Shown one piece after another: positions 3-19,366 of a DNA stretch of 26,850 nt. The stretch is from IMG/VR virus record IMGVR_UViG_3300049483_000231, positions 1 to 26,850 of that record, one strand, 5' to 3'. The DNA comes from a virus. The notes under the pieces were generated by a model. It did no database searches and was not told where the DNA came from. It saw nothing but the letters and a program-made list of their open reading frames with translations. Position 1 is the first letter of the stretch, and each line of letters opens with the position of its first letter. The position numbers were made by a program, and so were the translations under genes.

Positions 3-374
3 GATTGCCGCCAAGTATTTATTCATGCTTTAAACCATGCCTGCAATCTGGGTACGTTTACGGGCGAAGATGGAGCCCCTAAATCGCTATCTATTTTAAC
101 ACCGCTGATGAAGCTTACAAAGAAAGAAACTGTCGAGCTCGCCCTTACTCTTACTGGATGCTATAGAGCTCTTTCTTACACCCATACATCTTATGATGGT
201 AAGTATCCACCCGACGGGCATGACCACGCTACACTCCTTCGGGCAAAGGGTTTCGAACAAGCATTAGTTCCAGATCCGTTAGTTTTACGGGCTTGGAAAG
301 AGAAGTTGATGGAGCTCCCTATCGCTCCAAATTACTTCACTGAATTGGTCCACCGTTACCTTCTCTGGCTCTAG
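3..374 (+). CDS. queC: QueC-like 7-cyano-7-deazaguanine synthase, C-terminal part (5' end off window)
   Basis: The frame is open from base 3, so the Met at 108 is internal and this is a 3' fragment of about 123 residues. It shows the conserved QueC stretches DCRQVFIHALNHACNLGT, LTPLMKLTKKETVELAL, LLRAKGF and PDPLVLRA. QueC makes preQ0 (7-cyano-7-deazaguanine) from 7-carboxy-7-deazaguanine, ATP and ammonia. In canonical QueC four Cys (SCY..CG.C..C..R..GF) bind zinc. Here the same-length stretch at 183-254 reads TSYDGKYPPDGHDHATLLR, so those Cys positions hold Ser, Asp, Asp and Thr. This could be a metal-free or His/Asp-liganded variant. The ATP-binding PP-loop part lies outside the window. Directly followed by queD, which supports the assignment. 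Confidence 0.82.
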   Translation, partial: DCRQVFIHALNHACNLGTFTGEDGAPKSLSILTPLMKLTKKETVELALTLTGCYRALSYTHTSYDGKYPPDGHDHATLLRAKGFEQALVPDPLVLRAWKEKLMELPIAPNYFTELVHRYLLWL

Positions 375-388
375 ATAGGGTTCCCCAA

Positions 389-826
389 ATGCACTCGGCA
401 TCGCGGTTCCACGACATTAGTTGTGGCCATCGGGTTGTAGGTCACGAAGGCAAATGTCGCTTTCTCCATGGGCATAACTATAGAATACATTTTACATGCG
501 TAGCTAGAGGTAATTCTCTTGATAACTTAGGAAGAGTTATCGATTTTGGGATTATAAAGCAAAAGCTTTGCGTTTGGCTTGAAATTAATTGGGATCATAA
601 GACACTTCTATGGTCTGAAGATGAATATATTAAGCAGCTCTATATGGCGGGTATTGATAAAGATATAGTCACCGTTCCGTTCAATCCTACTGCAGAGAAT
701 ATAGCTGCCTGGTTAGCTACTGTAGTTGGACCAGAACAATTAAAGGGGACCGGTGTTCTGCTTTCTAAAGTAGTGGTCGAAGAGACGCGTAGATGCTTAG
801 CTACCTATGAGGTAGACATACAATGA
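389..826 (+). CDS. queD: 6-carboxy-5,6,7,8-tetrahydropterin synthase QueD
   Basis: At 145 aa it has normal QueD/PTPS length. It converts dihydroneopterin triphosphate (the FolE product) to 6-carboxytetrahydropterin. Zinc ligands are visible as His14 (CGHR) and His27/His29 (LHGHNY). Catalytic Cys23 sits in HEGKCRFLHGHN, with a DH pair at 69-70 (NWDHKTLL), the PTAEN motif at 100-104 and Glu131/132 in VVVEETRR. It begins 14 bases after queC and its end overlaps the folE fusion by an ATGA junction (823-826), so the genes are probably translationally coupled. All key residues are present and nothing suggests decay. Confidence 0.93.
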   Translation: MHSASRFHDISCGHRVVGHEGKCRFLHGHNYRIHFTCVARGNSLDNLGRVIDFGIIKQKLCVWLEINWDHKTLLWSEDEYIKQLYMAGIDKDIVTVPFNPTAENIAAWLATVVGPEQLKGTGVLLSKVVVEETRRCLATYEVDIQ

Positions 827-1722
827 AGGTCTTTACTCACCGAGAAGTTAAGTCTATGGCTTTAGATCTTTCGGAGATAATTAAAAAAGATTATCTCGGT
901 AAAGAGATTATAAAAGCCTATCCCGTTCCTCGAGGTGGGGTACCGGCTGCATACGCTATCGCTTCTTTCTTTCCGGATCGTAAACAGCAATTCCGGATTG
1001 TTGAAACCCCAGAAGAGGCTGATATTTTTATCGATGATCTTATTGATTCTGGTGAAACTTCTATTCGTTTCGAAAAAACTTATCCAAATAAACCATTCCA
1101 TGTTCTTTATGATAAGCGTAATGTTTTAGACCCAAATGAATGGATAGTCTGGCCATGGGAAAGTACCTCTGAATCTTCTATCGAAGAAAATATTAAACGT
1201 CTTCTCCAATATATCGGTGAAGATTGCACTCGAGAAGGTTTAAAAGAGACACCTCGTCGTGTAGCTAAAGCTTGGAAAGAGTGGACGACCGGTTACGCGG
1301 AAAAGCCAGAAGATGCTTTAAAATGTTTCGAAGATGGTGCGGACGGATGTGATGAAATGGTTATCCAGAAAGATATCCCATTCTATTCACACTGTGAGCA
1401 TCACATGGCTCCCTTCTTCGGCACGATCTCTATAGCCTATATTCCGAAAGGGAAAATTGTTGGATTGTCTAAACTTACTCGGCTAGCCAACGTATTCGTT
1501 CGACGACTTCAGGTCCAGGAAAGACTTACAAATCAGATCGCCAACGCATTGGAGGTTAATCTTAAACCTCTCGGTGTCGGTGTAGTGATTAAAGCTCGTC
1601 ATCTCTGCCAAGAATCTCGAGGTATTGAGAAGCAGGGATTGATTACTATCACGAGTGCGGTACGTGGCGCCTTAAGAGAGAAGCCAGAAGCGAGAGAAGA
1701 ATTCATGTTACTCGTGAGGTAA
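823..1722 (+). CDS. folE: Phosphoribosyltransferase-like domain fused to GTP cyclohydrolase I (FolE)
   Basis: A two-domain protein of 299 aa. Residues about 1-115 look like a short type I phosphoribosyltransferase: YPVPRGGVPAAYAI (33-46), a PRPP-loop-like DIFIDDLIDSGET (67-79), and WIVWPWE (107-113), which resembles the end of xanthine/guanine PRTases. Residues about 118-299 are a full FolE domain: REGLKETPRRVAKAW, zinc/catalytic residues in SHCEHHMAPFFG (Cys191, His193, His194) and ARHLC (His260, Cys262), plus GLSKLTR and QERLTNQIA. FolE makes dihydroneopterin triphosphate from GTP, the first step toward preQ0. The start codon overlaps the queD stop. What the PRTase half does is not clear; guanine salvage to feed GTP, or handling of a deazapurine base, are guesses. 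Confidence 0.9.
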   Translation: MKVFTHREVKSMALDLSEIIKKDYLGKEIIKAYPVPRGGVPAAYAIASFFPDRKQQFRIVETPEEADIFIDDLIDSGETSIRFEKTYPNKPFHVLYDKRNVLDPNEWIVWPWESTSESSIEENIKRLLQYIGEDCTREGLKETPRRVAKAWKEWTTGYAEKPEDALKCFEDGADGCDEMVIQKDIPFYSHCEHHMAPFFGTISIAYIPKGKIVGLSKLTRLANVFVRRLQVQERLTNQIANALEVNLKPLGVGVVIKARHLCQESRGIEKQGLITITSAVRGALREKPEAREEFMLLVR

Positions 1723-1725
1723 TAA

Positions 1726-1911
1726 ATGGCAAAGCACGATGCTAGAAAACAATCTTTATATTTCCCCGATGGGATGATTGAAGATATTAAAGGAGAAGCC
1801 ATCAGGTTAGATAGACCCATCTCTTGGATTATTCAAAAAGCTTGGGAAATAGCCCAAAGAGAAATTAAGCGTATTCCATCCGTAGGTGATGTATTAAATC
1901 AATCTAAATAG
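1726..1911 (+). CDS. Small ribbon-helix-helix-like protein (TIGR04563-like)
   Basis: A 61-residue protein with the pattern ARKQSLYFPDGMIEDIKGE followed by LDRPISWIIQKAWEIA. That is a beta strand plus two helices, as in Arc/MetJ-type ribbon-helix-helix DNA-binding proteins. The KQSLYFP...LDR..SW..Q.AW core closely resembles small proteins I know as the TIGR04563 family, mainly from Myxococcota; this is from memory. It begins 3 bases after the folE stop, with GAGG of the folE end serving as ribosome-binding site, and ends 3 bases before dpdA. It could regulate the modification operon or assist DpdA; no toxin partner is adjacent. Confidence 0.75.
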   Translation: MAKHDARKQSLYFPDGMIEDIKGEAIRLDRPISWIIQKAWEIAQREIKRIPSVGDVLNQSK

Positions 1912-1914
1912 TGT

Positions 1915-2874
1915 ATGCGATTATACCTCGCCGCCGTATATACTAGCTCTTATGGCAAGCACAGCCAGGTATATCTACGCCATACGGATGCTGAGAAGGT
2001 CTATAGAGACCAAGTACAGTATATCCTTGAATCTTATCATTATATTAGCCGTCAAAGTTATGCTGATAAGATTAGAGAGGATAATGCTAAAATCTTTTTA
2101 GACTCCGGAGCTTTTTCGGCTTTTACTAAGGGTGAGGAGATAGATCTACCCGCCTACTGTGATTTCGTCGTTCGAAATAAAGACATACTAGAAGTCGTCG
2201 ATGGTCAACCTTTATTCTCAGTTCTAGACGGTATAGGTGATCCAAAGAAAACCGGTATCAATCAGCAGTGGATGGAAAACGTTCTAAAGAAAGACGGTCT
2301 CCGCCCTCTACCGTGCTACCATTACGGAGAACCGCCCGAATATCTAGAATGGTATCTCGAGCATTACGACTATATCACTCTTGGAGGAATGGTCCCTATT
2401 TCGACTAAAGACCTCTACCTTTGGCTTGATACTATCTTCGAAGAATACCTTGTAGATGGATCAGGTAGACCAAAAGTTAAGGTCCACGGTTTCGGTCTGA
2501 CTACGATAGGTATCATGGAAAGATACCCCTGGTATTCTGTTGACTCATCTTCTTGGGTTCAGGTTGCCGCTAACGGGTCATTGTGGATACCAGATTGGGG
2601 TACAATCTCTGTCTCTAAGAATAGCCCGACGGCGAAGGAGCAATGGCGCCATTTAGATACACTTCCAACACCGCAGCATGAAGCAGTAAAAAAGTTAATC
2701 TTAGATAAAGGATTCGATCTCGAACGTATCCAAAATGACTATTCAGCTCGTTGGTCATTCAATTGCTGGTCATTCACTGAATTAAACAATAGAACAAATC
2801 GGAAGAATAAAGTATTCTTACGGGATCAACCTCAATTATTCAGCTACGAAATGGAGCCAAATGTCCTCTCTTAA
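1915..2874 (+). CDS. dpdA: DpdA-like DNA guanine transglycosylase (TGT superfamily)
   Basis: 319 aa. It resembles phage DpdA, the tRNA-guanine-transglycosylase relative that swaps guanine for a 7-deazaguanine base in DNA. Visible landmarks are LDSGAFSAF (62-70, equivalent to the DSGGFQ loop with its Asp), SVLDGIGDP (102-110), LGGMVP (156-161, the GG.. substrate loop), HGFGLT (191-196) and YSVDSSSW (207-214), where Asp210 is the likely nucleophile. The N-terminus MRLYLAAVYTSSYG is typical of the phage family rather than bacterial Tgt, and no Tgt-type CxCxxC zinc site is seen. Its place after queC-queD-folE strongly supports DNA modification. The last 14 bases overlap the MazG-like gene. Confidence 0.85.
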   Translation: MRLYLAAVYTSSYGKHSQVYLRHTDAEKVYRDQVQYILESYHYISRQSYADKIREDNAKIFLDSGAFSAFTKGEEIDLPAYCDFVVRNKDILEVVDGQPLFSVLDGIGDPKKTGINQQWMENVLKKDGLRPLPCYHYGEPPEYLEWYLEHYDYITLGGMVPISTKDLYLWLDTIFEEYLVDGSGRPKVKVHGFGLTTIGIMERYPWYSVDSSSWVQVAANGSLWIPDWGTISVSKNSPTAKEQWRHLDTLPTPQHEAVKKLILDKGFDLERIQNDYSARWSFNCWSFTELNNRTNRKNKVFLRDQPQLFSYEMEPNVLS

Positions 2875-3178
2875 CGAGTATACCACTCGTATCCGAGCTA
2901 ATGCTATCGCCAAGGGGTTCTGGGAGAAAGAGCGTAATTTCGGGGAGATGATAGCCCTTATCCACAGTGAGGCATCGGAGGCCCTCGAGGCACACCGAAC
3001 CGGAGGGCAGCCATACGAAACGATCGACGGTAAGCCAGAAGGATGGGTAATCGAGTTAATAGATACAATCATACGGTGTTTAGATACCATTGGACCGAAT
3101 ACGAATATAGACGAGTTAATGGAGCTGAAGCTCAAATATAACGAAAGTCGTGTATATAAGCACGGCAAGGCATACTAA
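2861..3178 (+). CDS. MazG-like nucleotide pyrophosphohydrolase
   Basis: 105 aa, all-alpha NTP pyrophosphohydrolase fold. The metal-binding helix pair is visible as SEASEALEA (36-44, ExxE with Glu37/Glu40) and IELIDTIIRCLD (64-75, ExxD with Glu65/Asp68). The C-terminus KYNESRVYKHGKAY is the usual MazG-like ending. Such phage enzymes hydrolyse (d)NTPs or alarmones and may clean the nucleotide pool or blunt the stringent response. The start lies inside the end of dpdA and the stop overlaps the next ATG (TAATG), placing it in the same operon. Confidence 0.85.
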   Translation: MSSLNEYTTRIRANAIAKGFWEKERNFGEMIALIHSEASEALEAHRTGGQPYETIDGKPEGWVIELIDTIIRCLDTIGPNTNIDELMELKLKYNESRVYKHGKAY

Positions 3179-6873: not shown

Positions 6874-8985
6874 CTATGACCACCCGTCCATGCAAATAAT
6901 CTCCAGCCCCCACCACGCGGCGGTGAGATCGTTCACCCAACCCGCGTTGCCCGCTGCGGCTGGGGCATCAATCGCAACAAGCTTAACCCCGGTCCACGCC
7001 CCGGCACTCCCCACGCCTGAGACGTAACCCCACGACCAGTTGGCATGGGTGGATACGCTAAGTGGTATAGCCATGACGACCGGTGGTGTCGTACCTTTCA
7101 GCGCGTTCGTGAAAGTAATCTCGAGGCCTGAGTTAGCGCCCAGGCCGGCGTTCCAGTAGGACGCCGACGCCAAATTGAGGCCAGTCACTGATGGAGTTCC
7201 GCCGGTAGCCGTAACTTGGCCCATCGCTGCGGCTGTCCCGAACTCAGACAAGAAACGCGCCCCGAGCTGAAAGTTACCCGGCGCCACCTTGAGAGCTGTG
7301 CCGGTGTGGTCGAGTTTCGCCCCCGCGGTCGGGCTGCCGCCCGACTCGGCGTAGTTGCTGGTTTTGATCTCTCCTGCTGCGATCTTTCCAGCAGTGATAG
7401 CGTTGGCCGCAATCTTGTCAGCTACTATCGCTCCGTTAACGATCATTGCAGCATCAACACCGTCTGGCAAAATCTCATCAGTACGTGGGGCGTAGCTAGT
7501 TGCTACATCTCCCTCAGCGACCTGTATCCCGTCGAAATAGAAATATCCGTTCGTACCTACATCGGCTCCATCATGTCCATCTATAAAAAGTTCACTTGGA
7601 GGGTCATTAGTCGTCCATCTAAATTTAACAATCGTTCGACGATATTCTGTGCTGATTAAAAGTGGTTGGGCAACCGGTATTATTTCATCTGGATCCGTAT
7701 TCCATCTTAGGGCAACTTTTCCGACTCCATTGGCTGTACCACCCGCTAAAGCCCAGCAAGCAAAGACGTACCAAATATTTTTTCGATATTGCACACCGGC
7801 CGCCTTTCCTCCTACCGTCATAGTAGAGTAATAGGTATAAAGACCTATTCGGTTAGGTGTTCCACTTGTCCAAGCGACTTTAGCTACTTTACTTCCGTGG
7901 ATACCAGGATCTGTAAAAGAAGATAGGATAGCACCGACACCCGCTAAATCGTATACAGCCCATCCGTGAGTAGTTCCTACCCCATCTTCAAAAGATGAAT
8001 TACGAACGAGATTGCCACCACCTACGCCGACAGTTAATTTATCGGCCGTAACGGCGCCAGCGGCTATCTTACTAGCAACAATCGCTCCGGCGGCAATCTC
8101 ATTAGCAATAATTAATTTTGTTGATTCCGCCGGCTCCCAGCTATCCCCATCCCATCTATAAGCATCATATTTGATCTTCGTTATAGAATCCGAATCAACA
8201 AAGGTCGTCGTATCGAACCAAATATCACCGACTCGAAGTGGATAACCACCTTGAGGATTAGTCGGCGCTGTAGTCTGGTAGAAAACTGCAGATTTAGATC
8301 CAGCTAGGGTTAACCCCTGGTTAGCCACATCGGCTGCATTAGTCGCAATAGCGGCGGCTACACTGGCGGCATTGGCGGCCTGATCGGCAAACGACTTGGC
8401 TTTTTCGTATATTTTTGCTAAGAGTGTTTGTCTTGTAGAGTAAACTCCATTAAAATATTGAGTAAAGAAGTTCGAATTAATAATCGTGTTTCCGGTAGTG
8501 TTATTCCAAGGAACAGGAGTAGTTAATATTCCTAGATAGTTAGTTAAATCATTGTAAGACGTATCATAATTAATACGTTCTTGACTTATACCATAAGCTG
8601 CGGCTTGAGCGTCTAATCCGCTATGCTCGTCTACTAAATGTTGATATTCTCTTATAACTGTAGCTTTTTCAACTGGTGACAGAAGGTTATCTGTAGCTAA
8701 TTCGGTAAGGATAGCATTCGCCGCTTGAGCTTGTGTAGAAGCTTCTACTGCTTGGGCTTGCGCCGCATTAGCTGTATTGAGAGCCGTAAGTGCATTATTC
8801 AAAGCGGTATCTATATCTGCCGCTCTATTAATAATATCTTGTATAGCACGGGCAACCGTGTAGATTACTTGTCCTAGCCGAGTTGTGACGACACTACCAG
8901 GTCCGCTTGCAGGTCCATTAATAATATCTTGGAGAGCCTGTGCGTCTTCTTCGGCATGTAAGAATGTTTCTTGTGTGATAGCCAT
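6874..8985 (-). CDS. Tail fibre / receptor-binding protein, mosaic
   Basis: 703 aa, last gene of the tail operon. An Ala-rich helical, probably coiled-coil, N-terminus is followed by a helical segment NLLSPVEKATVIREYQHL typical of tail-tip fibres, then a GDIWFDTTT...YRWDGDSW domain (about 250-285). Next is a linker with EIAAGAIVASKIAAGAVTAD (about 293-313), a carbohydrate-binding-like jelly roll starting NLVRNSSFEDG (about 324-500), and a second linker of the same type (VADKIAANAITAGKIAAGEI, about 519-538). A C-terminal beta-rich tip of about 160 residues ends the protein. The DNA for the tip is strongly GC-rich, the rest AT-rich, so the tip looks exchanged. It lies next to the TipJ-like gene, as expected for host recognition. 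Confidence 0.85.
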   Translation of the reverse strand: MAITQETFLHAEEDAQALQDIINGPASGPGSVVTTRLGQVIYTVARAIQDIINRAADIDTALNNALTALNTANAAQAQAVEASTQAQAANAILTELATDNLLSPVEKATVIREYQHLVDEHSGLDAQAAAYGISQERINYDTSYNDLTNYLGILTTPVPWNNTTGNTIINSNFFTQYFNGVYSTRQTLLAKIYEKAKSFADQAANAASVAAAIATNAADVANQGLTLAGSKSAVFYQTTAPTNPQGGYPLRVGDIWFDTTTFVDSDSITKIKYDAYRWDGDSWEPAESTKLIIANEIAAGAIVASKIAAGAVTADKLTVGVGGGNLVRNSSFEDGVGTTHGWAVYDLAGVGAILSSFTDPGIHGSKVAKVAWTSGTPNRIGLYTYYSTMTVGGKAAGVQYRKNIWYVFACWALAGGTANGVGKVALRWNTDPDEIIPVAQPLLISTEYRRTIVKFRWTTNDPPSELFIDGHDGADVGTNGYFYFDGIQVAEGDVATSYAPRTDEILPDGVDAAMIVNGAIVADKIAANAITAGKIAAGEIKTSNYAESGGSPTAGAKLDHTGTALKVAPGNFQLGARFLSEFGTAAAMGQVTATGGTPSVTGLNLASASYWNAGLGANSGLEITFTNALKGTTPPVVMAIPLSVSTHANWSWGYVSGVGSAGAWTGVKLVAIDAPAAAGNAGWVNDLTAAWWGLEIICMDGWS

Positions 8986-12322: not shown

Positions 12323-12819
12323 GTAAATCCGCGTAACATTGGGAATCTTTCAATAGAGTAAAACTCGCCAACGCGGCTAACGTTCAAGGACGGCGCTCTC
12401 GCCTCGAAGGAAGAACCTTCCCTCTTGAAACTAAAATTTAGCACTTCAAGGACAAGAGGCCCGTAGATTGGGGCGCTTAAGTGATCTGATCTATAAACCC
12501 TATACTTGACTACGGGTTTAACGCCGAATCCTCCAGCATCTGAGATAGAATCTAATTCTTTTGGAAGAACTTCCCCTAGATCCCCTAGATCGATTTTGAA
12601 CCCGTAATCTAAGTCTGCTTTGTTATGGTTGGCTGTAACTCTTAATGGATAATAATCAAAATGTTGGGTTGAAAGGTCCTCTAGAGTTACATCTATACCG
12701 TTGATAGCATTACGAACAATCCTATAGATTTTAGTGAAGTTTGGATGGCTTATCTCTAATAGTTCAAGTTGAACAATATCCGACCCGGAATTAAGAAAGT
12801 ATTCGGTGTAAAGGCTCAT
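12319..12819 (-). CDS. DUF1833-like minor tail protein
   Basis: 166 aa. The pattern LELLEISHPNFTKIYRIVRN, then a GIDVTLEDLSTQHFDYYPLRV strand pair, and VKYRVYRSDHLSAPIYGPLVLEV matches the DUF1833 minor-tail family. These proteins occupy the lambda gpL-like position before the NlpC/P60 gene. It overlaps the genes on both sides by ATGA, so all three are probably coupled. No Cys cluster is seen, so the iron-sulfur site of true gpL is not supported. Confidence 0.65.
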   Translation of the reverse strand: MSLYTEYFLNSGSDIVQLELLEISHPNFTKIYRIVRNAINGIDVTLEDLSTQHFDYYPLRVTANHNKADLDYGFKIDLGDLGEVLPKELDSISDAGGFGVKPVVKYRVYRSDHLSAPIYGPLVLEVLNFSFKREGSSFEARAPSLNVSRVGEFYSIERFPMLRGFT

Positions 12820-14567
12820 GGAGGTAATCCGGGTAATTGATTATTGATAAGATAATTTAATTCGTCAACCGTTGCTTGATCTATAGTATGAGCTATAACT
12901 GTATAGGCATAATCGATTACAGTTCTCCTGGGCTGAAAAATTTCTAATTCTGCTTGAACTATATAGGTATCACCATTCTTGCTAATAAGTCTAACTGAGT
13001 TAGGAATAAAGTGGGCTAAGCATTCACTAGGTTCTGGTGTATCAAATGGAATATCTATTGTAAAAGGAAGAGCACAGTCAGCTAGGGTTAAATAGAAGGT
13101 GCAAAAAGTATTATAGCCGGCTGGAGTTAGCTGCCATTGAGCTGTACAATGAGTGGAAGAGTTTTCCTGTCCTGCACTATAGGAAGACCGTCCTACATCG
13201 TAACGAACACTGTAAACTTCTATTCCTTCAGTTAGGGTATAGCCATCGGAAACCGGTTTAAGATTAAGCTTAGGTAGATTAGCGTAAGAAGCACCGACCA
13301 ACGTAGCAGAGACACCCGCTTTACCTGCTGAAGTACCACCCAGAGCGACGGCTTCTCTAGGAGTACCCTGAGCACCTGCTTGTCCAGCAGCGGAGCCAGT
13401 AAGAGCTGCGGAAGCCTGCGCAGAAGGTGTACCGGAAGCTCCAGCTTGGCCCGCTGCAGCGCCTCCTAAGGCAACAGTCTCTCTCGGGGTACCGACGGCG
13501 GCACCAGCACCTGCGGCTGCTCCAGTTAATCCAACAGTCTCGGTCGGAGTACCAGTATCACTGGCCTGCCCAGCCGCTGAACCTCCGAGTGGAACAGCAA
13601 CTCTTGGTGTACCTGAATCCGCAGCTTGCCCAGCAGCGGTACCTCCGACCGGAACAGCTACAGCCGGTGCACCAACAGCAGCTCCTTGCCCAGCGGCTGC
13701 ACCTCCTAAAGCGACGGTTTCGGTTGGAGTTCCAGTCGCAGCACCTACGCCGGCAGCGGCACCCTGAAGGGCGGCAGAACCAGCAACAGAAGGAGTACCT
13801 GAAGCGGCTGCTTGACCTGCGGCGGCGCCTCCAAGGGGAACAGCAACACCAGGGGTACCTGAATCACTAGCCTGGCCAGCGGCGGCCCCACCCAACGGAA
13901 CAGCGACGCCAGGGGTACCGGTATCCACTGCCTGACCGGCAGCAGTTCCACCTACAGGAACGGCAACCGCGGGGGCTCCCGCAGCGCCACCTACACCGGC
14001 AGCGGAACCCTGTAAAGCACCAGAAGCTCCTGGATCTATAGTTCCGCTATCGGCTGCTTGACCAGCCGCCGACCCAGCTAGAGGAACAGCAACTGAAGGA
14101 ATTCCTGTTGCACCTGCTTGGCCGGCCGCTGCTCCACCCAAAGGTGCTGGCGTACTAGGAGTCCCGGACGCCCCGGCTTGACCGGCAGCGGTCCCGCCTA
14201 AGGCTACTGTTTCACTCGGAGTACCAGTAGCCCCAGCTTGACCCGCGGCAGTACCACCAAGACCGACTGTTTCTGTAGGAGTACCTGAGTCACTAGCTTG
14301 CCCGGCAGAGGTACCACCCAAGGCTACAGCTTCTCGAGGAGTTCCGGTAGCCGCCCCCAAACCGGCAGCAGCTCCTGCAACAGGAACCGCTACTCCGGGT
14401 GCGCCGGTAGCCACACCTTGCCCTGCTACTGCTCCGCCTAGGGCTACAGTTTCTCGGGGAGTACCCGCAGCAGCACCGACGCCAGCAGCGGCACCTGTCA
14501 AAGCTGCTGAAGGCGCACCGCCTGTATCGAAAAGAAGTAGAAGGAGCTTGGAGCTCCGAGTGGGCAT
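12816..14567 (-). CDS. Repeat-rich tail protein: 20 Gly/Ala repeats plus minor-tail domain
   Basis: 583 aa. After a short N-terminus (KLLLLLFDTGG), residues about 20-423 are 20 tandem repeats of 20 (rarely 22) residues with consensus [AP]LGGxAAGQAxxxGTPxxxV. The last about 150 residues form a globular domain (NLPKLNLKPVSDGY...TAQWQLTPAGYNTF...FIPNSVRLIS...YIVQAELEIF). This aligns without gaps over about 70 residues to the small tail protein at 19004-19366 (TVTWKCTPVQYTYLKAFY..FVPGSLKLAS..YTVTAELDVL). So this is a tail-anchored protein that gained a long low-complexity arm. The arm may be a surface adhesin, a spacer or a flexible fibre; I do not know which. Confidence 0.75.
   Translation of the reverse strand: MPTRSSKLLLLLFDTGGAPSAALTGAAAGVGAAAGTPRETVALGGAVAGQGVATGAPGVAVPVAGAAAGLGAATGTPREAVALGGTSAGQASDSGTPTETVGLGGTAAGQAGATGTPSETVALGGTAAGQAGASGTPSTPAPLGGAAAGQAGATGIPSVAVPLAGSAAGQAADSGTIDPGASGALQGSAAGVGGAAGAPAVAVPVGGTAAGQAVDTGTPGVAVPLGGAAAGQASDSGTPGVAVPLGGAAAGQAAASGTPSVAGSAALQGAAAGVGAATGTPTETVALGGAAAGQGAAVGAPAVAVPVGGTAAGQAADSGTPRVAVPLGGSAAGQASDTGTPTETVGLTGAAAGAGAAVGTPRETVALGGAAAGQAGASGTPSAQASAALTGSAAGQAGAQGTPREAVALGGTSAGKAGVSATLVGASYANLPKLNLKPVSDGYTLTEGIEVYSVRYDVGRSSYSAGQENSSTHCTAQWQLTPAGYNTFCTFYLTLADCALPFTIDIPFDTPEPSECLAHFIPNSVRLISKNGDTYIVQAELEIFQPRRTVIDYAYTVIAHTIDQATVDELNYLINNQLPGLPP
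13299..14510 (-). repeat. 20-copy 60-bp coding repeat (20-residue Gly/Ala unit)
   Basis: Twenty in-frame units of about 60 bases. Three units carry two extra residues (ending DPGASG, SVAGSA and SAQASA) and are followed by units starting ALQG or ALTG, hinting at higher-order blocks. Protein units are nearly identical, but codons differ: the 14-residue stretch GVAVPLGGAAAGQA occurs at 13869-13910 and 13809-13850, and 10 of its 14 codons differ. The array is coding and has no spacers, so it is not CRISPR. Confidence 0.9.
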
Positions 14568-14570
14568 AAC

Positions 14571-14855
14571 TTACGTCGCCTCGCTCACGTCCAGGGTAGG
14601 CGTGCCCGTCGAGGCCCTGGCCCAGACCTGATCACTAGTCCCGAGGCGCATACAGTATTCTCCGCCCGGCCCGAGTCGTCTAGATCCACTTGCGTTCCAC
14701 GCCGTGCCGCTGCCGGGGTCTGTGCCCGAGATGCGGATACCGACACTAATATCCTCGTTGGGGTTAGATACCTCGATGTATATGTGCGACGCGAGGGAAT
14801 CGAGTCGTGTCCACCCGGTGGCGCTGTTGATTGCGACGCTAGTAATCTGGGCCAC
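14571..14855 (-). CDS. Small beta-rich phage structural-type protein
   Basis: 94 aa from a GTG start, supported by AAAGGAG at 14862-14868, six bases away and embedded in the end of the previous gene. It lacks a signal peptide. The pattern IYIEVSNPNEDISVGIRISG...GTAWNASGSRRLGPGGEY...DQVWARASTGTPTLDVSE looks like a small beta sandwich of the sort used as phage capsid or tail decoration, where a bound oligomer is scored by 'VWARASTGT'. Ends 3 bases before the repeat-rich tail gene. The overlapping frame from 14857 is a shadow. Confidence 0.65.
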   Translation of the reverse strand: MAQITSVAINSATGWTRLDSLASHIYIEVSNPNEDISVGIRISGTDPGSGTAWNASGSRRLGPGGEYCMRLGTSDQVWARASTGTPTLDVSEAT

Positions 14856-14858
14856 AAT

Positions 14859-15029
14859 TTACTCCTTTAACTTGCAGGTATCCTCGATACGTTGTGCGAG
14901 ATCGTTATAGAAGAACGCCCGGTCCACGTCCGCCCGATGATCCATCCGGTAGAGGAGATAAGCCATGATGAGAAGAGCCACCACCATCGGCCCGTACTTA
15001 TCGAGAGCTCTGAGGAGGAGATCACTCAT
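14859..15029 (-). CDS. Small single-pass membrane protein
   Basis: 56 aa. The start at 15029 is chosen for its ATGA overlap with the previous stop (15026-15029). A short amphipathic N-terminus (MSDLLLRALDKYG) leads into one membrane helix (PMVVALLIMAYLLYRM, about 14-29) and a charged C-terminal tail (DHRADVDRAFFYNDLAQRIEDTCKLKE). A holin-like or membrane-anchor role is possible, but no lysin gene is next to it, so I do not call it a holin. Confidence 0.65.
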   Translation of the reverse strand: MSDLLLRALDKYGPMVVALLIMAYLLYRMDHRADVDRAFFYNDLAQRIEDTCKLKE

Positions 15030-16513
15030 GGTGCCTTCAGGTGGATCGCCCCAGCGTAGCCGCTGTTCCCTGGCACCGAGGTCAGCGACCACGTCCACGA
15101 CTGAGCGGCCGTCGAGGTGACGAATTGGTGGGCACGGCAGTCGGAGTTGTCCATGGACGAGTTGTCGGTCTGCCCGGTGTAGTTGACGAAATCGAAGATC
15201 GCACCCGACGGAGCGGTCACGTTCAGCACCGGCCCCTGGCCCACGGTGCAGCTTGCGATCAGGATGCCTCCCGTCACCGACGGCGTGATGTCCGGGAAGT
15301 TGGCCTTGGAGGAGAGGTTCGACAGGTCCACCGAGACCTGGAAAGCCGTGTTGCCCACCGGCGCCGTATTGGCCCCCACGATGTCGTACACGGTGAGCGA
15401 CTCAGCCTGGGGCGTACCTGACACCGAAAAGGTCAGCTTCTCACTGAGACTCGGGGTGCGGTTCGCCACCACCCAGAACATGCTAGTGTCTGCCGCCCCC
15501 TGGTACTTCGTGAGACTGCCAGAGGCAGACGACGTCACGGCTGTCACGTTCCAGATGTCCGTGCCATGCGTGGAGACCACCAGGAGGTTGCCGACGCTGG
15601 GCGTCTGGAGTACCAGGCTGGCGGGCGGTAGCTCGGTCGTGGAGTGGATCACCTTCGCGATCCGCATCCCGCTGGGCGCCGTCCCCGCGCTCGCCACCTT
15701 GAGCGCGAGCGACAGCCCGATGAACTCGTCGTTGGCCGGGCTCATCGTGAAGGTCATGGATGGGTTGATAGACGCCGCAGTGGTCTGCACCGTGTACTGG
15801 CTGGCGTGCCAGGTGGACGCCTGCGTGCCGTACGAGGTCCCGTCCGCGTCGAGCAGCGTGAACCCGGATCCCGCCGCGATGGTGGTGGCCTGGTTGCCCG
15901 ACGAGGCGTTGGCGTCGCTCCAGAACAGGCTCCAGATCAGGTTGCCGCCGTTCGCGTCGTTGTTCCCCGGCGTGAAGCTGCCCGAGTTGACCGTGGGCGC
16001 CGCGTCCACACTCGCTCCGGCGCTGCCGTTGGCAGGGCTCGTCGTTGCGATGTTGTTGAACTCGGAGATCGTGTACTGGAACGGGATCACCGCCGCGCTG
16101 AAGTTCACGGTGATCGTGTGGATGCCCGACGCCGCGTTGGGCAGGACGAAGATGTCCAGGTCCACGTTGGCGTTCGTGTCGTTCACCGAGGCCGTCGGGG
16201 TGGTCGGCCACGTCCCGTTGGTGTCGCTGACCGGCGTGGCCGCGAACGTGCCGCTACTAGGAGAAGCGATACCTAAGATAAGAACATTACCCGCCAGCAC
16301 CGGGTTGGGCAGCGTGAACTTGAAGTTGTTGCCGGTCTCCCCGATGCCGGGCGGGTTGGAGGTCGAGACGAGGTGCTGGACGAGCGTCGGGGTCGGCGGC
16401 GGATATAAGTTAACAACGGGGGAGGTAATGCCCATTCGAAAATTGGACTTATAGCCAGGGGCTGCGTGCGCTGATGTGGCGACGACAAGCAGAACCAGGA
16501 GAAGACGCTTCAT
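15026..16513 (-). CDS. Secreted two-domain beta-sandwich protein
   Basis: 495 aa. The start at 16513 is preferred over 16552: it overlaps the previous stop as ATGA and exposes a clean signal peptide MKRLLLVLLVVATSAHA followed by APG. The mature part has two similar halves of about 220 residues. Each begins with a strand then ..VGNLLVVSTHG / LAGNVLILGIAS, has T-V-T-F-S strands and an aromatic middle (EFNNIATTSP / YDIVGANTAP), and ends with a hydrophobic strand before K. It looks like the surface beta-sandwich domains found in bacterial secreted and phage adhesin proteins. Function unknown. GC-rich throughout except small patches near 16255-16285 and 16400-16440. Confidence 0.8.
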   Translation of the reverse strand: MKRLLLVLLVVATSAHAAPGYKSNFRMGITSPVVNLYPPPTPTLVQHLVSTSNPPGIGETGNNFKFTLPNPVLAGNVLILGIASPSSGTFAATPVSDTNGTWPTTPTASVNDTNANVDLDIFVLPNAASGIHTITVNFSAAVIPFQYTISEFNNIATTSPANGSAGASVDAAPTVNSGSFTPGNNDANGGNLIWSLFWSDANASSGNQATTIAAGSGFTLLDADGTSYGTQASTWHASQYTVQTTAASINPSMTFTMSPANDEFIGLSLALKVASAGTAPSGMRIAKVIHSTTELPPASLVLQTPSVGNLLVVSTHGTDIWNVTAVTSSASGSLTKYQGAADTSMFWVVANRTPSLSEKLTFSVSGTPQAESLTVYDIVGANTAPVGNTAFQVSVDLSNLSSKANFPDITPSVTGGILIASCTVGQGPVLNVTAPSGAIFDFVNYTGQTDNSSMDNSDCRAHQFVTSTAAQSWTWSLTSVPGNSGYAGAIHLKAP

Positions 16514-17205
16514 CCCGAGACCCCCGTCATCTGACTGTCGTTCGTTCCCCACGACGTTACGTCCATGCAGGCACCAGTAGCGAGATCGATGAACGACGTG
16601 TTGGTCGTGTTAGCCGGGTCATCGAACCGAACGGTGACGCCGGGTGTACCGGCCCCCATTGTGCCCACATTGAACACGTAGAGGACCACCTTCAGGCACT
16701 CGCCAGCGTTGATAGTTGTGGCAGACGGAGTACCCGCGCTGGTGCGAGCAGCTACCGTGGTACCCCACTCCGTCGAGACAGTAGTGGGATCGATGATGGT
16801 GGCGAGGTTCGCTCCGGTAGAACACGTCGCTCGATAGAGGCCGGTGCGGAATCCTGCGTTGTTGCCTGTCGCCGCCTCCAGTCCGTACAGGCTGGTTGTA
16901 ATCGCTGACGCCGCGACGGAGAAACTGGCTGACAAAGGCTTGGTGATGAACCCGTTGATAACCTGGCCACCGCCAGTCTTCGTCATGGTGATCGACGTGC
17001 CGCCGGCGGTGGTGTTCGTGATGAGCGTGTCGAAGGTCGAGCCGAGGCCGCTCGCCGCGTTCGTGTCAAGGTCGTACCACCCGGCCCCGATGGCGTTCAT
17101 CTGGGTCCTGTGGAAGTACAGGCGCCGGCAGCCGTTGGGGTTTGCCCCAGCATGAGGTGCAACGATGAGGGCGATAAGCCCCAGGGTAAGGGCCAGCCTT
17201 CTCAT
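16510..17205 (-). CDS. Secreted protein of unknown function
   Basis: 231 aa with a signal peptide MRRLALTLGLIALIVAPHAGA and cleavage before NPNG. The start overlaps the previous stop (17202-17205, ATGA) and has AAAGGAG at 17214-17220. The mature part is Thr/Ala/Gly-rich with strand-loop patterning and four Cys (GCRRLYF, ATCSTG, GECLKV, GACMDV), which could form two disulfides after export, consistent with a periplasmic or surface location. No family recognised. Coupled to the 495-residue protein downstream, so the two may act together. Confidence 0.75.
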   Translation of the reverse strand: MRRLALTLGLIALIVAPHAGANPNGCRRLYFHRTQMNAIGAGWYDLDTNAASGLGSTFDTLITNTTAGGTSITMTKTGGGQVINGFITKPLSASFSVAASAITTSLYGLEAATGNNAGFRTGLYRATCSTGANLATIIDPTTVSTEWGTTVAARTSAGTPSATTINAGECLKVVLYVFNVGTMGAGTPGVTVRFDDPANTTNTSFIDLATGACMDVTSWGTNDSQMTGVSG

Positions 17206-17384
17206 TCTACTAACTCCTTTCCGTTTAAAAATTCGCAGACCTTACGATAACAAGAGACACATAGATTGTGAGTGTTAACCTCTTGTGGTGTCGTCACGTC
17301 TCGCAGATCGAGGACATACCGCTCCTCAGGCAGGAAACGCGGTAACGTCGTGTTGCATCTGTCACATGAGTAAGAAACGGTCAC
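17202..17384 (-). CDS. Small zinc-ribbon protein
   Basis: 60 aa from a GTG start at 17384, placed two bases after the previous stop with GGGG of the preceding codons as a weak ribosome-binding site. The in-frame Met at 17450 would require a 64-base overlap and is less likely. Two CxxC pairs (SCDRC, residues 7-10; LCVSC, 42-45) plus Cys50 suggest one zinc site. It has no signal peptide. The DNA is AT-rich while the genes on both sides are GC-rich, so it may have a separate origin. Confidence 0.65.
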   Translation of the reverse strand: MTVSYSCDRCNTTLPRFLPEERYVLDLRDVTTPQEVNTHNLCVSCYRKVCEFLNGKELVE

Positions 17385-17386
17385 GG

Positions 17387-18247
17387 TTACGGCCCCAGGT
17401 AGTAGAGGACGTTGACGATCTTCGAACCCGTCGCCGCGTGGATCCAACACAGCGCGTTCGCCGCCGGTAGCTGGAGGTCTGCACCGAGTGGGAAACTAAC
17501 GGTAAACCCGCCGTTTGCCGGGTTGAACGATCCCCACAAGTACGTAGTTCCGGTCCCGCAGTTCGTGCCCGTACCGTACTTCAGGGTCAACTGCTGGTCA
17601 GCCGTAGTCGTCGCCGCCACCGACGCACTCATGTGGATCGACTTGACGTGGATGCTGATGCCCGACGCCGGGGCCGCAATCAACTGCGTGAGCGTGGTGG
17701 CAGTCGCCAGGCCGGAAGTAGCGAACGTGGTAGAGAGTGGCTTGTAGTAGGTCGCTCCCATCGCGTCCGACGCCGTGGCCTGGAAGGTAACCGAGCCCGA
17801 CGTGCGCGCCGTGCAGTTCAGCCTATAGTGGGTGGCCCCGCTGACCCCGATCACACTGTACGTGTCCGCTGCCGTAAACGAAGTGATCGTCAGGCTGCGA
17901 TCATCGCCTGTCGCGTTCTCGAACTTCACCGCCTTCCAAGTCGTCCCTCCGTCGAGACTCACCTCGGGCTGGATGGTGATGCCGGAGGGAGAGGAGATCG
18001 CCGTGACCTGCACGCCGAACGTGCTCTTGCCCAGCATAGACGTTGAGCAGAACCCGCCCGTTGCGTTCACCGTGCAGGACGAGGTTGTGTTCGCGCCCTG
18101 GACGCGGGTCACGTCCACCTGGAGACCCTGCTCTGCGGTCACCCGAGGGGTGTCCACGTTGCCGGAACCGTCAGGCCCCTTGAGGTAGGTGCTCTGCGCA
18201 AGCGTCAGCGCAGGTGCTAGAATTAACAGTGCGATGAGCTTGCGCAT
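17387..18247 (-). CDS. Secreted phage-structural-type beta protein
   Basis: 286 aa. Signal peptide MRKLIALLILAPALTLA with cleavage before QSTY. The mature part has two beta domains. The first has VSLDGGTTWKAVKF, followed by GVSGATHYRLNC and SGSVTFQATAS, a jelly-roll pattern common in phage decoration and fibre proteins. The second (IHVKSIHMSASVA...QLTLKYGTGTNC...GGFTVSFPLGADLQL..NVLYYLGP) is also a familiar phage virion domain. The odd point is a virion-type protein with a Sec signal: it may be displayed on the host surface or in the periplasm rather than in the particle. First gene of the GC-rich block. Confidence 0.75.
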   Translation of the reverse strand: MRKLIALLILAPALTLAQSTYLKGPDGSGNVDTPRVTAEQGLQVDVTRVQGANTTSSCTVNATGGFCSTSMLGKSTFGVQVTAISSPSGITIQPEVSLDGGTTWKAVKFENATGDDRSLTITSFTAADTYSVIGVSGATHYRLNCTARTSGSVTFQATASDAMGATYYKPLSTTFATSGLATATTLTQLIAAPASGISIHVKSIHMSASVAATTTADQQLTLKYGTGTNCGTGTTYLWGSFNPANGGFTVSFPLGADLQLPAANALCWIHAATGSKIVNVLYYLGP

Positions 18248-18252
18248 AGCTT

Positions 18253-18732
18253 TTAGTCCTCAGAGAAGGTAAGCTGACCGGCTGCAAACGAAGGGGTCAT
18301 ACCTGTCGTAATAGCAGGGTTGCTGGTTAATGATCCCCAATAGAGTCTGTTACCGGCACCATGGGTTGCCGAGTCTCTAACTTCGAATCCCATCAACGTT
18401 CCCCAAGAACCCGTCGCCGTAGGGAATGTGATAGCATTCACATTGCCAATAGACGATGGATCCCCCGAGGGAGCGGTCCAGTTAGCATCGAGTTGAGTAA
18501 CCGTTACCCGAGCATAAGAGTTAGCATTTGTGACTTCGGTGCAAGGTGTAGCGTCTGTCCCAACGTTTGTGCAAAGGATAATAGCAATAGCTGCTGGTTT
18601 AGTTGCTGTTTGAGTGCGGAAAGTTAAATTGAGAAGAAGAACTTCGTAATAAGGACCTTTATCTGCAAAGGCGATTAAAGGAAGAACGACAAGAAGGGCC
18701 AATGCTGCAAAATTGCGGATTTTCTTAAACAT
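18253..18732 (-). CDS. Phage tail/fibre-type protein with signal peptide
   Basis: 159 aa. The N-terminus MFKKIRNFAALALLVVLPLIAFA fits a signal peptide cut before DKG. The rest matches a very common phage virion domain: NSYARVTVTQLDANWTAP, AITFPTATGSWGTLMGFEVRD, GNRLYWGSLTSNPAITTG and FAAGQLTFSED. Homologues are usually cytoplasmic virion proteins without a signal, so the leader is unusual. AT-rich like the tail genes, unlike its neighbour downstream. AGGAG upstream of the ATG supports the start. Confidence 0.8.
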   Translation of the reverse strand: MFKKIRNFAALALLVVLPLIAFADKGPYYEVLLLNLTFRTQTATKPAAIAIILCTNVGTDATPCTEVTNANSYARVTVTQLDANWTAPSGDPSSIGNVNAITFPTATGSWGTLMGFEVRDSATHGAGNRLYWGSLTSNPAITTGMTPSFAAGQLTFSED

Positions 18733-18744
18733 GAGTTATCTCCT

Positions 18745-18993
18745 TTACTTCATCGTACCGCTGCCAGTTGATTTTCCAGTAAGTGGAACGACTGCCGAAG
18801 GAGGCTTAGGTTTCATAAATCCTGTACCGTGGCCTCGTCCTTGAAGTGGAACGATAAGAAGAGGCTGTTGCATTAACGGCTGGATAGATAGTGTACCGTT
18901 AGTCCCAGCCTTACCTTCACCCTTAGCAGTTGGAGAAGATGAAGGACTACAGGAAAGAAAAAGAAAGCTTGAAACGAAGATAAAAGTTTTCAT
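18745..18993 (-). CDS. Small lipoprotein with Pro/Gly repeat motif
   Basis: 82 aa. The N-terminus MKTFIFVSSFLFLSC ends in a lipobox (LFLSC), so Cys15 is probably lipidated and the protein membrane-anchored. The remainder is Pro/Gly/Ser-rich and contains two similar units, IVPLQGRGHGTGFMKP and VVPLTGKSTGSGTMK. These loosely resemble the VPLGGxAAGQAxxSGTP unit of the repeat-rich tail protein encoded at 12816-14567. The shared motif is a visual similarity and may be only compositional. First gene of the accessory region after the minor tail gene. Confidence 0.7.
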   Translation of the reverse strand: MKTFIFVSSFLFLSCSPSSSPTAKGEGKAGTNGTLSIQPLMQQPLLIVPLQGRGHGTGFMKPKPPSAVVPLTGKSTGSGTMK

Positions 18994-19003
18994 CGTAGAA
19001 CCT

Positions 19004-19366
19004 CTAACTTAGAACATCTAGTTCGGCTGTTACAGTATATTCTAACCCCATAACAGAAGCCAACTTCAGGGACCCCGGTACGAACTTCACAGTATGAGGG
19101 GCAGGGGTTGAATCTTCAAGGATAATAGTGATCAAAAACGAAGCTGCCGTAAATTGCACCAACCGATAAAAAGCTTTTAGATACGTATATTGTACTGGAG
19201 TACATTTCCAAGTCACAGTCACAAGAGGTAAAGTTTTACCGGTCGGCTTTAGAGATACACGGCGGTATTTGGCTACTCCACCAGCAACAGCATGAGCTAT
19301 AACATCAGATCCTCTTTGGAGAATATAATTGGACTCATCCGGTATGAGTTCAAGTGTAATTGCCAT
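19004..19366 (-). CDS. Minor tail protein after tape measure (gpM-like position)
   Basis: 120 aa, starting directly after the tape-measure stop (TAAATG). A compact beta domain: LVTVTWKCTPVQYTYLKAFYRL...SFLITIILED...VKFVPGSLKLASVMGLEYTVTAELDVLS. In lambda-like tails this place after H is held by M, a tail-tip protein; sequence similarity to gpM cannot be judged by eye. The same domain reappears at the C-terminus of the protein encoded at 12816-14567, so the two are paralogues now separated by the accessory cassette. Confidence 0.65.
   Translation of the reverse strand: MAITLELIPDESNYILQRGSDVIAHAVAGGVAKYRRVSLKPTGKTLPLVTVTWKCTPVQYTYLKAFYRLVQFTAASFLITIILEDSTPAPHTVKFVPGSLKLASVMGLEYTVTAELDVLS

Follow-up and report, generated by a model that had tools for sequence, protein, structure and literature searches.

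The window analysed here is the whole 26,850-base virus record IMGVR_UViG_3300049483_000231 from IMG/VR, which represents a siphophage. Its tail operon runs on the minus strand in the order connector, terminator, tube, chaperones, tape measure, a gpM-like gene (phrog_384), a cassette of inserted genes, a second gpM-like gene with a repeat arm, gpL, gpK, gpJ and fibre. This cassette (14571-18993), which an earlier reading of the sequence (hereafter the original prediction) had described as a set of mostly exported proteins, is our subject; its coordinates and reading frames agree with that description. The genes of the cassette and those bordering it are as follows.

19004..19366, minus strand: first gpM-like protein, right behind the tape measure and forming one edge of the insertion (phrog_384, E 1.5e-10).
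18745..18993, minus strand: lip82, a putative lipoprotein of 82 amino acids with the leader MKTFIFVSSFLFLS followed by the lipobox C; no family.
18253..18732, minus strand: Gp80-like protein (Gp80), 159 amino acids, with a Sec leader of about residues 1-23, the Shine-Dalgarno sequence AAGGAG, a mature domain of family PF23140, and Cys54 and Cys64.
17387..18247, minus strand: F2, 286 amino acids, with a Sec leader and five cysteines; shares GL[QD]VDVTRVQG (10/11) with a leaderless gene at the matching place in contig L275.
17202..17384, minus strand: zinc-ribbon-like cytoplasmic protein of 60 amino acids (CxxC...CxxC), with a GTG start, leaderless and without a family; it interrupts the leadered run.
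16510..17205, minus strand: ORF231, with a Sec leader, a Shine-Dalgarno sequence and four cysteines; a member of an uncatalogued phage fibre beta-sandwich family with the motifs NTTAGGT and NVGTMG.
15026..16513, minus strand: ORF495, 495 amino acids, with a Sec leader, two similar halves (about 21% identity) and two cysteines.
14859..15029, minus strand: protein of 56 amino acids with a single transmembrane segment, as judged from its sequence; no relatives.
14571..14855, minus strand: o94, 94 amino acids, leaderless, with a GTG start; no family.
12816..14567, minus strand: B583, the second gpM-like tail protein (phrog_384, E 1.1e-12), with a long N-terminal arm of 20-residue GGxAAGQAxxxGTP repeats; aligned to Kmi_10.

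The five export signals originally claimed are indeed found by a rule-based finder, which calls leaders on all five proteins in question (18745-18993, 18253-18732, 17387-18247, 16510-17205 and 15026-16513) and on none of the other predicted genes of the window. When calibrated on Escherichia coli K-12, the finder called 19/19 exported, 1/76 cytosolic and 7/28 inner-membrane proteins, and it also called Lom, Rz1 and Bor of lambda. The five N-termini combine a basic n-region and a hydrophobic core with an AXA-like or lipobox site; for lip82 the leader and the cysteine are present as predicted, but the lipobox, F-L-S-C, is imperfect at positions -3 and -2. The successive leadered products and the single membrane protein (14859-15029) are likewise there, except that the run is broken by the leaderless gene at 17202-17384 and that the product of 14571-14855 is leaderless.

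The clearest indication of what the leaders have been attached to comes from Gp80. The protein passes the gathering score of Pfam family PF23140 (E 2.6e-26; 92.9 bits, with a cut-off of 27) over profile positions 5-127 of 128. This family is that of podophage GP4 fibre I, and its profile matches the GP4 virion chain 8jou_a (E 8.5e-22), so that membership of the virion is known for the family from the particle of this relative, and the Gp80 of the window is virion-type by its sequence. Homologues came from 34 phage records and, through alignment queries, from 85 loci (IMG/VR and genome contigs). All 77 contig homologues with a readable N-terminus are leaderless; they start with M-[AS]-x-x-[ST]-x-[YF] or similar, and their first residues align to residues 22-28 of the window protein, i.e. 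where its leader stops.

The original prediction placed virion-type domains behind a leader in two proteins, Gp80 and F2. It was right about Gp80; the second domain that could be demonstrated is that of ORF231, and F2 is a probable case only. Relatives of ORF231, sought with a degenerate DNA pattern of the NVGTMG motif (16 contig stretches), belong to a family with members in 10 loci, the best sharing 35% identity over 182 residues (E 2e-16). Those in which the N-terminus is present are leaderless and start with M-[AS]-T-K-L-[FY] or similar (e.g. MATKLFLRNTQ) at window residue 26-28. The predicted structure of ORF231 is a beta-sandwich (predicted template modelling score 0.72), ordered from residue 28, and its fold matches in BFVD are chiefly phage proteins, including fibre proteins with collagen repeats and S74-peptidase domains. 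ORF231 thus has the fold of the family, both its motifs and its N-terminus at the first strand, with the leader as an extra. The family gave no match in Pfam or PHROGs at the thresholds used, nor in 398 Pseudomonadota genomes; PDB matches of the model (CocE-type beta-sandwich) were taken as indicating the fold class only.

A search for the same ordered set elsewhere, as the original prediction had advised, was rewarded in L275, an IMG/VR contig with a siphophage tail operon in which an appendage set follows the tip and lysis genes. Its order is gp80, F2-like, ORF231-like, a repeat protein and a transmembrane protein of 79 amino acids. The gp80 product is 51% identical to that of the window (z 36), the ORF231-like protein scores z 12, and the repeat protein compared with B583 scores z 6. 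Leaders are absent from the gp80, F2-like and ORF231-like products, and it is this leaderless set of the same order that points to a tail-appendage module re-targeted to Sec.

The remaining members of the cassette are less informative. The mature part of lip82 resembles about two units of a PLxGxxxGxG tail repeat, a likeness to B583 seen by eye only, and its alignment with the L275 repeat protein is not significant. The same holds for the full pairwise alignment of F2 with its L275 counterpart (z 1.8); the motif common to these two is confined to them in a set of 15,998 six-frame segments, and the single-sequence fold of F2 is poor (predicted local distance difference test 38.6) and unusable. 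At 17202-17384, a longer overlapping frame has a G+C content at third codon positions (GC3) of 0.48, unlike its neighbours. No relatives of ORF495 were shown in phages, the fetched loci or the 398 Pseudomonadota genomes; a domain common to it and proteins of L278 and L275 was suspected, is unsupported by profile comparison and is not claimed. Searches of phages by tblastn with F2, ORF231, ORF495, the transmembrane protein, the F2-like protein of L275 and the L278 protein gave no match, nor did a plasmid search, and IMG/VR scans with 8-residue peptides of gp80, F2, ORF231 and gpL, which proved too specific, returned nothing.

The position of the unit inside a tail operon, as originally described, can be stated more precisely from a comparison of the gpM-gpL gene order with that of Acinetobacter phage HD01, Klebsiella phage Kmi2C and lambda. 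HD01 and Kmi2C, the closest cultured tails, have one gpM each and an empty gpM-gpL gap, and the cassette is therefore an insertion between two gpM copies. phrog_384 is matched by 19004-19366 and by the C-terminus of 12816-14567, and each of these lies between the tape measure and gpL; the arm of B583 comprises about 20 copies of the 20-residue Gly/Ala repeat. In other tails of this type the gap is empty or holds leaderless fibre-like inserts. A duplicated gpM is seen also in L108, and in L111 the duplication lies inside one protein; the varied leaderless fibre- or adhesin-like genes accepted by the gap in related tails include those at L116 4055-5536, L121 7312-9129 and L128 2771-6523. On the coding strand we saw no promoter-like site within the cassette and no convincing terminator signal, and the cassette is thus probably expressed within the late tail operon.

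The cassette is composite. GC3 is 0.67-0.87 in F2, ORF231, ORF495, the transmembrane protein and o94, compared with mostly 0.29-0.46 (maximum 0.54) in the backbone; lip82 (0.31) and gp80 (0.40) look native by this measure. A high-GC relative is the probable source of the high-GC block, and the join would lie within or just past gp80. At the start of the window, 3-3178 encodes a 7-deazaguanine set that comprises QueC, QueD, GTP cyclohydrolase and a member of the queuine tRNA-ribosyltransferase family; HD01 carries a set of this kind too, and its role is probably DNA modification.

Leadered relatives of Gp80 do exist. A PF23140 search of 388 and 399 Pseudomonadota genomes yielded six further leadered Gp80 genes (L291, L302-L306); nine other genes of the family whose N-terminus could be read were leaderless. 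The six, all from prophages, group in one clade (98/98) that excludes the window protein, which is placed with the leaderless L010 and L090 (90/89); a single clade of all seven leadered proteins is mildly rejected (approximately unbiased test, p-AU 0.037), which suggests that leadered Gp80 arose twice. In each of the seven the mature domain contains exactly two cysteines, whose positions vary, compared with 0-1 in leaderless homologues, a pattern to be expected if leadered Gp80s fold in the oxidising periplasm. In L312, L314 and L316 the start of the leadered gene overlaps the final codons of a gene for an Rz-like spanin, which puts it in the place of a lysis-cassette gene; it lies behind a tail-tube gene in L313 and L315, and behind head and connector genes in L300. 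Lectin-, repeat- or leucine-rich-repeat-type genes follow downstream in 5/6, L312 stopping at the contig edge.

The premise that Sec signals are rare in phage tail genes is borne out: among evaluable fibres with a KISQLPSA-type adaptor motif, a leader is present in 3/54. These leadered fibres stand after gpJ (L118), after baseplate genes (L201) and, in the Mu-like L218, after the last baseplate-type gene and before a putative lipoprotein. The latter (L218 10758-11678, behind a leadered tail fibre of 1579 amino acids) has a hydrolase-like look. A profile of the three leadered fibre N-termini found no further clear leadered fibre in 398 genomes, and we found no report of leadered Gp80 or Sec-exported tail fibres in the open-access literature. 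Strong leaders are also scarce in or just after the tail-tip region of 80 related tail loci (17 in total), and 10 of these 17 sit between the tape measure and gpM, being mostly one Acinetobacter lipoprotein. The corresponding gene, encoding a conserved lipoprotein of 195 amino acids, occurs at this place in many Acinetobacter prophages (e.g. L135 7585-8172).

By the sequence criteria applied, the leaders are a true feature rather than misread starts: they lie ahead of the position at which the leaderless relatives begin, the leader ATG codons of gp80 and ORF231 each have an AAGGAG ribosome site 7-8 bases off, and leadered Gp80 recurs, together with the cysteine pair, in six prophages. Export of the cassette proteins is thus very probable and would be the simplest account of the leaders, starts and cysteines. 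That the cassette is a tail-appendage (adhesin or fibre) module whose members gained signal peptides, i.e. a re-targeted virion module, we regard as quite likely, such ancestry being apparent in the sequences of gp80 and ORF231 and likely for F2; export and re-targeting taken together still make a probable reading. The infected cell would then probably secrete parts that other tailed phages build inside. Host Sec machinery would export Gp80, F2, ORF231 and ORF495 to the periplasm, where the leaders would be cleaved off and disulfides would form, and lip82 would be lipidated and retained in the envelope. The products may serve, as originally suggested, host-surface decoration, a superinfection block or a secreted adhesin complex, or may join virions after lysis. 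Our first choice, put forward tentatively and by analogy, is receptor masking, with post-lysis attachment to the virion a close second: exported adhesins would act at the exterior of the infected cell or on cell debris and occupy the receptor, so that sibling phages could not re-adsorb.

Several points weigh against this view. Leaderless Gp80 already assembles on virions, and an exported copy could be redundant; the virion kinship of F2 rests on one motif and its position, and ORF495 is without a demonstrated virion relative. The association of leader and cysteines spans about two independent origins and, being of little power once kinship is counted, is suggestive. The leader calls come from a rule-based finder. 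A chimeric contig could lie behind the GC3 jump at 14571-18247, although genes and reading direction are continuous across both its edges.

Among the rival explanations, the one we take most seriously, while still considering it somewhat unlikely, holds that the adhesins are exported for disulfide formation, or as cytoplasm-harmful proteins, and dock on the tail from outside at lysis, for which B583, with its repeat arm, could offer the landing site. It would agree with the tail-fibre place, right behind baseplate genes, of the leadered L218/L201 protein, with the overlap of leadered Gp80 and spanin genes in three prophages, with the virion status of Gp80 in GP4, with the cysteine pair, and with the repeat proteins adjoining Gp80 in L275 and L300. 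Attachment from outside would, however, be diluted, the window phage has a leaderless fibre of its own (6874-8985), and we know of no case of post-lysis attachment in tailed phages. An improbable alternative makes the cassette a group of separate exported genes for lysogenic conversion or the envelope, parked in the tail operon and functionally unrelated to the tail; the Acinetobacter prophage lipoproteins between tape measure and gpM, lambda lom behind J and the apparent import of the high-GC block are all compatible with it, but it is at odds with the virion-type families of Gp80 and ORF231 and with the leaderless appendage set that L275 has in this order.

The leadered Gp80 genes beside Rz in three prophages also bring lysis accessories to mind, with lip82 as an outer-membrane spanin, the 56-residue transmembrane protein as a holin or pinholin, and the rest as bystanders. 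Sizes and topology fit, yet no lysis family was matched, an inner-membrane spanin partner is absent from the cassette, and we consider this explanation very unlikely; the spanin and holin readings are unsupported and were set aside. Scarcely credible, finally, are mis-annotated starts or chance hydrophobic N-termini. The original prediction had named leaders missing from homologues through mis-annotated starts as its weak point, and homologues do begin past the leader, but as a true difference and not through a start error: no ribosome site accompanies any later start in gp80, and in ORF231 there is just a weak AGGA inside the domain, the leaders mark five of five proteins in the unit and none elsewhere in the window, and they recur in the six prophages.

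Tailed phages are regarded as assembling wholly in the cytoplasm. Virion-type adhesins with Sec signals and, in prophages, a cysteine pair would imply either that phages secrete their own adhesins as blocking agents or that some particles are completed outside the cytoplasm, and either would, to our knowledge, be new for tailed phages. As leadered Gp80 is present in ordinary bacterial genomes, both readings are testable in laboratory lysogens. More speculatively, and on balance doubtfully, some tailed phages might make a portion of their host-facing parts outside the cytoplasm, with Sec-signalled adhesins of virion type acquiring periplasmic disulfides and joining the particle, or being displayed on the envelope, only at lysis, and repeat tail proteins providing the docking. 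Leadered tail adhesins are, in any case, a little-noticed, recurring variant.

It is nothing unusual for a tail operon to hold a single exported gene, as lambda lom, T5 llp and the Acinetobacter lipoproteins exemplify. The llp gene of T5 is a neighbour of the receptor-binding gene, and its product blocks the receptor from the periplasmic side (PMC9586334); Rtp45 does likewise for LptD (PMC12685063). These proteins and T1-type Cor are, as the cassette products would be, phage-encoded envelope proteins from the structural region, but they are single small lipoproteins and not virion domains. With its 82 amino acids, leader and lipobox-type site, lip82 is predicted to be such a small lipoprotein; it lacks the internal cysteine pair of Llp and Rtp45, its sole cysteine being that of the lipobox, and family scans revealed no similarity to Llp, Cor or Rtp45. 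T4 Spackle (gp61.3) is exported with a cleaved signal peptide, has two cysteines described as disulfide-linked and acts in the periplasm on the tail lysozyme (PMC7650644); unlike the cassette, it is a single inhibitor of the gp5 lysozyme without adhesin domains. Lambda lom and bor, the former within the tail region, are exported, as the cassette products would be, but are outer-membrane or lipoprotein conversion genes that come one at a time and are not of virion families. GP4 fibre I (PF23140, 8jou chain a) has the same domain over its whole length and is virion-associated in the solved GP4 particle; compared with it, the window copy adds a Sec leader and two cysteines and stands in a siphophage tail-tip operon, not behind a podophage head and connector set. 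The L275 module shares the order gp80, F2-like, ORF231-like, repeat protein and small transmembrane protein, but three of its products are leaderless and it follows the tip and lysis genes instead of lying between gpM copies. The cassette, which we propose may be a multi-gene counterpart of the action of T5 Llp, is set apart from known exported tail-region genes by the number of its exported genes and by their membership of virion families.

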